A stretch of DNA of 33,312 bases from Candidatus Methylomirabilota bacterium (lineage in GTDB: Bacteria; Methylomirabilota; Methylomirabilia; Rokubacteriales; CSP1-6), in the NCBI GenBank assembly GCA_035936835.1, contig DASYVT010000203.1, forward strand, positions 1 to 33,312, written 5' to 3'. The translations under genes were made by a program, and so were the position numbers. Below the pieces are notes generated by a model. It saw only the letters and a program-made list of their open reading frames with translations, did no database searches and was not told where the DNA came from. Each line of letters opens with the position of its first letter. Positions within the stretch are counted from its first letter, which is position 1. This document shows, piece after piece, positions 1-1,870 of this stretch.

Positions 1-368
1 ACCATGGGCTCAGGTGGCTCGAGCCCGCGCACGTCGAGAACGGCCATGTCACCGTCAGCATCCGCGGCGGCGCGGGCGCCCGCGACCGCCTCCGCCGGCG
101 CGGAGGGCTCGCGGTAGAACCAGACGATCCAGTCGTCCGGCGCGCTCTGCTCGGCCCAGTGAGCGAAGCCGCGCTTGCCGAGCGCGGCAAAGAGCGGCAC
201 GGGCTCGAAGGGCGCGCGCAGGACCAGCGCCTGCTCCGGAGCCAGCGCCTTGACGGTCGCCATGATCCTGGCGAACGGCTCGTGGCCGCGGCGGATGTCC
301 TCCCGAACGTCGAGGCGGACCAGGTTCGCCGCGGTCACCCGGCGGAGCGCCTGCGGGCGGTCGGCCAC
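1..368 (-). CDS. DUF2249 domain protein, partial (runs off left edge)
   Basis: Only the first 122 codons are in the window; the gene continues past base 1. The chosen GTG start at 368 lies 5 bp after the stop of the DUF542 gene, so the two are probably co-transcribed. The protein has one complete DUF2249 (TusA/SirA-like fold) unit, recognisable by V-R-L-D-V-R-E-D-I-R-R-G-x-x-P at the start, L-V-L-R-A-P-F-E-P-V-P-L in the middle and a tryptophan-rich end (residues about 15-85). A second unit begins at L-D-V-R-G-L-E-P-P-E-P-M at the window edge. DUF2249 proteins commonly travel with ScdA/RIC-like and denitrification or low-oxygen genes, which fits this neighbourhood. The biochemical role is not established. 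Confidence 0.75.
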   Translation of the reverse strand, partial: MADRPQALRRVTAANLVRLDVREDIRRGHEPFARIMATVKALAPEQALVLRAPFEPVPLFAALGKRGFAHWAEQSAPDDWIVWFYREPSAPAEAVAGARAAADADGDMAVLDVRGLEPPEPM

Positions 369-373
369 GGCGC

Positions 374-625
374 TTACGCCTTCACGGCCGCCGGCCGGTT
401 GAGCGCATCCAGCAGCGCCTCGAGCGGGACGCCTGCCGAGGCGGCGGCCTCGCGCAGCGTCAGGTGCGCTCCGCAGCAGTGGTTGATCCCCATCTCCTTC
501 ATGATGTCGAGCGCTCCGGCGTAGTGGTGGGCGACGTCACCCACCGTGAGATCGGCGTTGACGGGCGCGCCCGCGGCTTGAGCCGTCGCGGGCGACTGAG
601 CGTGGCAGCTGCATTCGTGAGCCAT
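374..625 (-). CDS. DUF542 protein (stand-alone ScdA/RIC N-terminal domain)
   Basis: An 83-residue protein made of a DUF542 (ScdA_N) domain, the N-terminal module of the iron-sulfur cluster repair proteins ScdA/YtfE/RIC. The hallmark I-N-H-C-C-G-A-H lies near residue 48, followed by L-R-E-A-A and a leucine-rich helix. The C-terminal di-iron hemerythrin domain of full RIC proteins is absent, so this is a single-domain form. Translation start is well defined: ATG at 625 with an AAGGAGGAAGG Shine-Dalgarno at 641-631. It is followed after 5 bp by the DUF2249 gene. A Crp/Fnr-type palindrome lies at 674-693. The family points to nitric-oxide or low-oxygen stress; a specific reaction for this short form is not known to me. 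Confidence 0.85.
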   Translation of the reverse strand: MAHECSCHAQSPATAQAAGAPVNADLTVGDVAHHYAGALDIMKEMGINHCCGAHLTLREAAASAGVPLEALLDALNRPAAVKA

Positions 626-673
626 GGTGTCCTTCCTCCTTGAAAGGAAGGTTACTCCACGGCGCTGGAGGCG

Positions 674-693
674 CCTATGACGGGGATCATAGG
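674..693 (-). promoter_or_regulatory. Crp/Fnr-type operator upstream of the DUF542 gene
   Basis: A perfect inverted repeat, CCTATGA-N6-TCATAGG, contains the Crp/Fnr core TGA-N6-TCA. On the minus strand a -10-like TAACCT (654-649) would place transcription start near 642. The operator centre (683.5) is then at -41.5, the class II activator position. The regulator gene at 1166-1870 is the obvious candidate. The site is seen in the sequence; the regulator assignment is inferred. Confidence 0.7.
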
Positions 694-721
694 TGGTGAA
701 GCAATGGACAAGCGGAGGGGA

Positions 722-1165: not shown

Positions 1166-1870
1166 TCAGTCCCCGGGCTCGCCCGCCGCGATGTCGGCGA
1201 GCGCCGTCTTGTCGACGATGACGAGGCGGCCGCCCTCGTCGATGACGAGCCCCGTCTTGAGCCAGCGGCTCACGCTGCGGATGGCGGTCTCCACCGTGGT
1301 GCCCGTCATGTCGGCGAGGCTCTGCCGCGTGAGATGGAAGGGCAGGGCCAGCCCGGCCTTGGTGCGCGCGCCGTCGCGCTCGGCCAGCCGGAGGAGCGTC
1401 GCGGCCAGCCGCGCCTCGACAGGGTCCACGGACAACGACTTGACCGAGTCGTGGGCTTCGCGCAGCCTGCGCCCGATCATGAGCGCCATTTCCTTGATCA
1501 CGACCGGGTGTCGCTCGCTCGCGGCGATCAATGCGTCGGCCGGGATCTTGAGCACGGTGGTGGGCTCGAGGGCCTGGGCGGCGGCGGGATACGGGCGCTT
1601 TTCGATGACGGCGACGCCGCCGAAGATCTCTCCGGGGCCCAAGAGCTCGAGCACGACGTCCTTGCCCGCGCTCGAGTGCCTCACGATCTTCACGCGCCCC
1701 GACGCGACCACGCAGAGCCAGCGCGCCGGGTCGCCCTCCATGAAGACAAACTCGCGCGCCCGGTATGTGTCCTCGCGGGCTGCGCCGGCCAGGGCCTCGA
1801 GCTCCTTGGCCGGCAGCCCGGCGAAAACCGGGTTGGACTTGAGCGCCGTCACCCGCTCGCCCGTGGGCAT
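1166..1870 (-). CDS. Crp/Fnr family transcriptional regulator
   Basis: A 234-residue protein with an N-terminal cyclic-nucleotide-binding-like beta barrel (about residues 10-125), a long dimer helix and a C-terminal winged helix-turn-helix (about 150-225). In the latter L-T-R-Q-S-L-A-D-M-T-G precedes the recognition helix T-T-V-E-T-A-I-R-S-V-S-R, whose Glu/Arg pattern matches the FNR/DNR half-site TTGA or close relatives. Only one cysteine is visible, so it is not a 4Fe-4S FNR and looks more like a DNR/NnrR-type or ligand-binding member. The ATG at 1870 was chosen because the domain begins soon after; no strong ribosome site precedes it. It heads an operon with the membrane protein gene and probably acts at the palindrome at 674-693. 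Confidence 0.9.
   Translation of the reverse strand: MPTGERVTALKSNPVFAGLPAKELEALAGAAREDTYRAREFVFMEGDPARWLCVVASGRVKIVRHSSAGKDVVLELLGPGEIFGGVAVIEKRPYPAAAQALEPTTVLKIPADALIAASERHPVVIKEMALMIGRRLREAHDSVKSLSVDPVEARLAATLLRLAERDGARTKAGLALPFHLTRQSLADMTGTTVETAIRSVSRWLKTGLVIDEGGRLVIVDKTALADIAAGEPGD

Follow-up and report, generated by a model that had tools for sequence, protein, structure and literature searches.

The window, the whole stretch of 33,312 nt that we analysed (contig C203 of the source genome), carries near one end a Crp/Fnr regulator gene, a gene for a small COX1/NnrS-like membrane protein and the DUF542 and DUF2249 genes, all on the minus strand (Table 1). The ATG (625) of the DUF542 gene and the stop codon of the COX1-like gene are separated by a gap of 96 nt (626–721), and within it lies the sequence CCTATGACGGGGATCATAGG (674–693), whose two 7-bp arms are separated by 6 nt and match without a single mismatch. 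This is the perfect palindrome CCTATGA-N6-TCATAGG to which the preliminary description had drawn attention. Reading on along the minus strand, it is followed by TAACCT (654–649), whose first T and the palindrome centre (683.5) are 29.5 nt apart, by AGGAGG (640–635) and the DUF542 start codon, and then by the DUF2249 gene. Transcription predicted to start at 642 would place the operator centre at −41.5, so the spacing fits the class II promoter that had been proposed. The same description had the Crp/Fnr gene directly upstream of the site, which is not the case: the 145-aa COX1-like gene lies in between, and the operator is found ∼470 bp downstream of the regulator gene rather than adjoining it. 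In front of the regulator gene of the window, no TATGA-N6-TCATA site with up to two mismatches was detected.

Table 1. Predicted operator, promoter elements and neighbouring genes in the window
Feature	Position	Strand	Basis and remarks
Operator palindrome CCTATGA-N6-TCATAGG	674..693		Core TATGA-N6-TCATA at 676–691; family-wide consensus TATGAC-N4-GTCATA
Predicted −10 box TAACCT	649..654	−	Sequence; same offset family-wide
Predicted transcription start	642	−	Inferred from the −10 position
Shine–Dalgarno AGGAGG of the DUF542 gene	635..640	−	Sequence
DUF542/ScdA_N protein, 83 aa, RIC/dnrN-like domain alone; predicted target	374..625	−	PF04405, E = 1.7e-11
DUF2249 protein, cut by the contig end; predicted target	3..368	−	PF10006, E = 2.9e-20; continued on contig C13
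COX1/NnrS-like membrane protein, 145 aa	722..1159	−	PF00115, E = 6.1e-9; NnrS, 3.7e-4
Crp/Fnr regulator, 234 aa, helix TTVETAIR, without Fe-S cysteines	1166..1870	−	PF00027, E = 6.8e-22; PF13545, E = 1.1e-14

Occurrence of the motif and geometry of its promoters

Of 100 shuffles of the window, 27 contained one or more copies of the full palindrome with up to three mismatches. Since a shuffle test of the window alone is weak evidence, we relied on tests across the genome and the clade instead. In the source genome (4.117 Mb, 236 contigs), exact TATGA-N6-TCATA had three occurrences, one in the window and two on contig C13 (C13:179 and C13:2635), compared to 0.14 expected for an exact 10-base pattern at the G+C content of the window and none for the reversed control pattern. 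All three sites were located at nitrogen-oxide genes, with C13:2635 in front of nirK. Positions 1–869 of contig C13 are 95.2% identical to positions 869–1 of the window, although both are contigs of one assembly; C13 is therefore probably a strain variant of the window locus, the genome bin probably mixes strain variants, and the two DUF542 sites are probably one locus counted twice. C13 continues the operon of the window with DUF2249 and a 531-aa COX1-like protein fused to an FeS_assembly_P domain; the second site comes next, ahead of a NirK scoring above the NCBIfam cut-off (TIGR02376, 351 bits versus 296). A looser scan of the source genome (TATGAC-N4-GTCATA, up to three mismatches) returned 315 sites versus 189 for the control; because these are mostly uninformative, we claim no further targets there.

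Globally, the presence of the motif followed that of the regulator. Among 57 genomes of the family, 20 encode an orthologue (E ≤ 1e-40) and 29 contain the exact motif. All 20 regulator-positive genomes had it (57 sites versus 2 for the reversed control), as opposed to 9 of the 37 regulator-negative ones (15 sites versus 9), an association with a Fisher p of 1.1e-8 for orthologues that are related, so that their sites and promoters are not fully independent. Phylum-wide (95 genomes), the motif was present in 24 of 24 regulator-positive genomes versus 21 of 71 others. One regulator-positive genome (G076) contains a single site, on another contig and inside a gene resembling an ABC transporter, which looks unrelated. 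As for genomes with the motif and no regulator match, three (G033, G040 and G041) are 71–77% complete, and a fourth (G030), 90% complete, carries its site ahead of an eNOR gene.

The palindrome could also be bound by another Crp/Fnr paralogue or by an unrelated factor, with the neighbouring regulator serving other targets. We consider this improbable. The genome does encode further HTH_Crp_2 proteins, and 9 of the 37 family genomes that lack an orthologue match contain the motif; however, of the three clear HTH_Crp_2 proteins only the window regulator has a TTVET[AT]IR recognition helix, those of the other two being TVRELVSR and VNRGSASQ, and it is the orthologue of the window regulator that motif presence tracks. 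Also against it are three genomes of another family (G057, G058 and G059), whose homologue is ∼37% identical with helix TLETAIR: their single exact site lies 1.36 kb from the homologue gene, with a −10 box at offset 21. In a family of the phylum other than that of the source, the sole genome-wide sites at L196:3473, L197:4661 and L198:4403 have TAGACT at offset 21, the first of them facing a gene ∼260 nt away that resembles radical SAM proteins.

Class II activators bind with their site centred at about −41.5, where they replace the −35 box. Across 130 site directions, 35 of the 43 TANNNT matches following a site were 21 or 22 nt away. An offset of 21 is that of TAACCT in the window and thus corresponds to a site centre at ∼−41.5, the class II position. 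TANNNT at 20–23 nt was found in 34 of 64 gene-facing directions, in 0 of 38 opposite ones and in 2 of 28 at unassigned sites, where the 64 comprise sites of regulator-negative genomes, PAS- and cytochrome-type reference classes and related genomes, and count near-identical orthologous promoters separately. The sequences thus strongly support the layout of a class II Crp-dependent promoter. Repression at the window site is a very unlikely reading: sequence does not fix the sign of regulation, but the centre at ∼−41.5 in many promoters is that of a class II activator, and the −10 boxes are found on the side that faces the gene. Judged by its genomic context, the window site is a real site, class II in layout, and not a chance palindrome.

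Predicted targets of the regulator

To assign targets we examined the neighbourhoods of all 57 sites from regulator-positive genomes and of 8 of the 15 sites from regulator-negative family genomes. Because GC3-based gene calling gave spurious open reading frames on the opposite strand, we identified targets through tblastn searches with reference proteins. A recognised nitrogen-oxide gene was faced within 480 nt by 44 of the 57 sites, and 13 had no recognised target; in the regulator-negative genomes, five of the eight examined sites faced nitrogen-oxide genes. The families faced were DUF542, DUF2249, DUF1858-DUF2249, NirK, COX2/COX1-like pairs, HAO-like multihaem cytochromes, NarG-like molybdoproteins, EB_dh dihaem cytochromes, hemerythrins and NnrS/COX1-like proteins. 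The preliminary description had staked its reading on further sites near functionally related genes in relatives; such sites were found, and the reading was not refuted. The window site would accordingly be one member of a nitrogen-oxide regulon, most likely read by the neighbouring regulator.

Two kinds of COX2/COX1 pair are faced. In the first, Gln replaces the oxidase Tyr (GHxSQQINV) in seven readable loci; Gln at this place is a mark of eNOR, according to the available text of PMC8756737. The second pair retains the oxidase Tyr (GHPIVY). G024 has two sites, spaced by 46 nt, in the region from which nirK-cytochrome c and eNOR genes diverge. At L062 (192–1700 and 1805–1866), a NirK with a fused C-terminal cytochrome c is divergent from eNOR, with two TATGA sites in tandem 46 nt apart. 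Four loci (L067, L074, L091 and L094) encode a protein that combines a cytochrome c at its N terminus with a multihaem part of the hydrazine-dehydrogenase/HAO type; the gene for this protein is divergent from NarG-like, eNOR or EB_dh cytochrome genes, and one palindrome is common to both. Four unassigned sites in four related genomes (L070:1124, L071:2977, L076:2981 and L087:1940) fall within the first part of the coding sequence for a secretin-like protein and are probably coding coincidences. Neither these nor sites near a tmk-like gene were counted as targets.

The small COX1-like gene is a conserved neighbour of the regulator in Rokubacteria and Nitrospirota, and is present in 10 of the 65 homologue loci from outside Rokubacteria described below. 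In eight of these ten we examined the site in front of it, and TANNNT followed at 21 or 22 nt in seven; the ninth locus (L171) has TATGATATTTATCATG ∼79 nt upstream of the COX1-like start, and in the tenth (L186) no site was found in front of the gene. The small COX1-like gene is a probable target of the regulator in several Nitrospirota. In L069, L073 and L095 (G035, G037 and G049), another membrane protein of ∼144 aa, starting with MDLF or MDLL, takes the place of the COX1-like one.

The regulator and its relatives

Membership of the window regulator in the Crp/Fnr superfamily is clear, as both PF00027 and PF13545 scored above cut-off and the fold agrees. Its AlphaFold model (pLDDT 79, pTM 0.55), which we used for the fold only, has a Crp/Fnr fold with GlxR as the best match (3r6s, Z 19.4), and also resembles the sensor domain of DNR (2z69, Z 16.5) and an HcpR structure (9day, Z 16.4). 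As the preliminary description had noted, the protein lacks Fe-S cysteines: each of 19 orthologues has none or one, so the four cluster cysteines of FNR are missing. When the cAMP pocket of GlxR and of Mycobacterium tuberculosis CRP was aligned, its E, R and S/T corresponded to G, Y and P, unlike a cAMP-CRP. Few histidines are conserved (H65 in 17 and H140 in 19 of the 19 orthologues). All 19 share the recognition helix TTVET[AT]IR.

Among the closest known systems is NnrR of alphaproteobacteria. The nearest annotated plasmid relatives, less than 40% identical, lie beside DUF2249-NnrS-nirK-nap (Rhizobium), NnrS-DUF1858 and cytochrome-oxidase/NorQ-type genes (Chelatococcus), DUF2249-DUF1858-hemerythrin (Azospirillum, in a locus with a TTTGCG-type NnrR palindrome) and nar (Thermus); we call the alphaproteobacterial ones NnrR-type from their gene neighbours, as the records say Crp/Fnr only. 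NnrR and the window regulator align almost without gaps at ∼35% homology and share nirK, NnrS, DUF2249 and nor as targets, and control of nir, nor and NnrS by the window type is predicted from the 44 of 57 sites. The YP motif of the NnrR-type sensor domain is also aligned, with Tyr94 in the window regulator; according to the available text of PMC8510549, Tyr93 matters for the function of R. sphaeroides NnrR. In contrast, the helix is TT[VL]HTVSR in the NnrR type, and the operator is TTTGCG-N4-CGCAAA rather than TATGAC-N4-GTCATA (consensus CTTTGCG-N4-CGCAAAG in the available part of PMC1274295). In a tree of 59 rows, the four plasmid NnrR-type sequences formed a separate clade (100/99), which places the regulator outside the alphaproteobacterial NnrR clade, and the 52 sequences of the TATGA-type group came together at 94/92, just under the strict threshold.

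Other systems share single traits. DNR of Pseudomonas is likewise a Crp/Fnr regulator of denitrification genes with a similar sensor fold (2z69, Z 16.5), yet its operator, CTTGAT-N4-ATCAAG in the excerpted text of PMC1274295, is unlike TATGA. HcpR1 of deltaproteobacteria regulates nitrogen-oxide-related genes and has the very similar half-site TTGAC, with T instead of the A of ATGAC at the third position; the same portion of PMC1274295 gives TTGAC-N4-GTCAA as its operator and hcp and frdX as targets. As classified with the reference families named above, the targets include no hcp gene, and the match to HcpR is at the level of the fold. CRP and GlxR (TGTGA-N6-TCACA) have the same half-site spacing, and GlxR is the best full-length fold match, but they have G at position 3, and the GlxR pocket FGE..RTS aligns to FGG..YPA here; the TGTGA half-site of cAMP-CRP likewise differs from the TATGA of the window. 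In the literature searched, we found no paper describing a TATGA-N6-TCATA operator.

Homologues reach well beyond the phylum. Relatives of the source that were named include Candidatus Rokubacteria/Methylomirabilota metagenome-assembled genomes, and 65 of the best 80 of 308 homologue loci are from outside Rokubacteria, mostly from Nitrospirota, Chloroflexota and deltaproteobacterial lineages. One of the patterns used to find these loci includes the helix itself, so they cannot show how often the helix varies. Across the 461 kb of the 65 loci, TATGA inverted repeats without mismatch occurred 9 times at a spacer of 6 nt (0.65 in shuffles) and 0–2 times at other spacers. The commonest inverted repeat was GGCCG (20 versus 3.2), so the argument rests on the specificity for a spacer of 6 and on the position beside the regulator. 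Of self-complementary T-N-TGA palindromes, the best 80 of 308 loci contained no TGTGA, no TCTGA and one TTTGA; a matrix scan added sites of the GATGAT-N4-ATCATA type. Homologues with the TTVET[AT]IR helix in Nitrospirota and Chloroflexota adjoin the same palindrome; in the 4–9 kb of many distant ones that share this helix, no exact site is present. Taken together, the co-occurrence of motif and regulator, the conserved helix and the recurrence of the site next to homologues from other phyla strongly support the earlier suggestion of a regulator with its own specificity. In three Anaerolineae loci (L162, L177 and L189), the TATGA site is centred ∼20–60 nt before the start codon of the regulator itself, which suggests autoregulation, perhaps repression, unlike the window.

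At helix positions 180, 181, 184 and 185, FNR has V, E, S and R, position 184 being FNR Ser212. The TATGA group has V180, E181, I184 and R185, and so differs from FNR at 184; we hypothesize that I184 may set the A at operator base 3. CRP position 180 tracks operator base 3 (G versus T) and position 181 tracks base 6, according to the accessible part of PMC1274295. A broader reading is that the TTVET[AT]IR clade across Methylomirabilota, Nitrospirota, Chloroflexota and deltaproteobacterial lineages reads ATGA[CT]-N4-[AG]TCAT, with A at base 3 (G for CRP; T for FNR, HcpR1 and DNR), that its members are the nitrogen-oxide master regulators of these organisms, and that the small COX1-like haem-type protein is their ancestral partner. 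On this joint reading our confidence is evenly divided. In the literature we found no nitrogen-oxide master regulator described for those phyla.

Proposed mechanism and significance

The palindrome is probably the operator of the Crp/Fnr regulator encoded in the window. That regulator would be an NnrR-like protein that acts as a class II activator on nitrogen-oxide genes and has an operator code of its own. At the sequence level, this is supported by the site and its −10 spacing, by the regulon, by the conserved recognition helix and by the fact that regulator and motif occur together. We infer from them that the regulator binds the site, activates transcription and responds to a nitrogen-oxide signal, most likely NO and perhaps via haem. 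In the proposed mechanism, a cysteine-poor, probably cAMP-independent dimer would bind TATGA-N6-TCATA centred at ∼−41.5 and bring RNA polymerase to the DUF542-DUF2249 operon as class II activators do. In the source genome nirK would be under the same regulator, and in relatives so would the genes for the eNOR-type NO reductase and the nitrate-reductase-like and HAO-like proteins.

The preliminary description had also proposed sensing of NO or haem ligands, which the target genes and the NnrR-type relatives make plausible. It had further suggested that the signal may pass through the adjacent oxidase-like membrane protein; what the loci show for this small COX1-like gene is conserved proximity to the regulator and, in several Nitrospirota, a probable role as target. 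A tentative alternative is that the regulator binds the site and answers to another signal (low oxygen, nitrite or nitrate), or that it is ligand-free and controlled through its own expression, as is the case for FixK2. Few histidines are conserved, and nitrate-reductase-like genes and the GHPIVY-type COX2/COX1 pair are among the targets, which would suit this alternative; however, the commonest targets (DUF542, DUF2249, eNOR and nirK) are NO-linked, and the nearest annotated relatives are in nir/nor loci.

For nitrogen-oxide respiration in uncultured bacteria of soil and groundwater, an NnrR-like activator reading TATGA provides a regulon, an operator and a regulator that are open to testing. 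In the available text of PMC8510549, an NnrR homologue of Nitrospira was scanned with operator matrices borrowed from proteobacteria, and such matrices would miss the TATGA operator wherever the regulator reads TATGA. Finally, the natural series of G, T or A at one operator base, together with the helix changes at 180, 181 and 184, gives a means to test the evolution of Crp/Fnr specificity.
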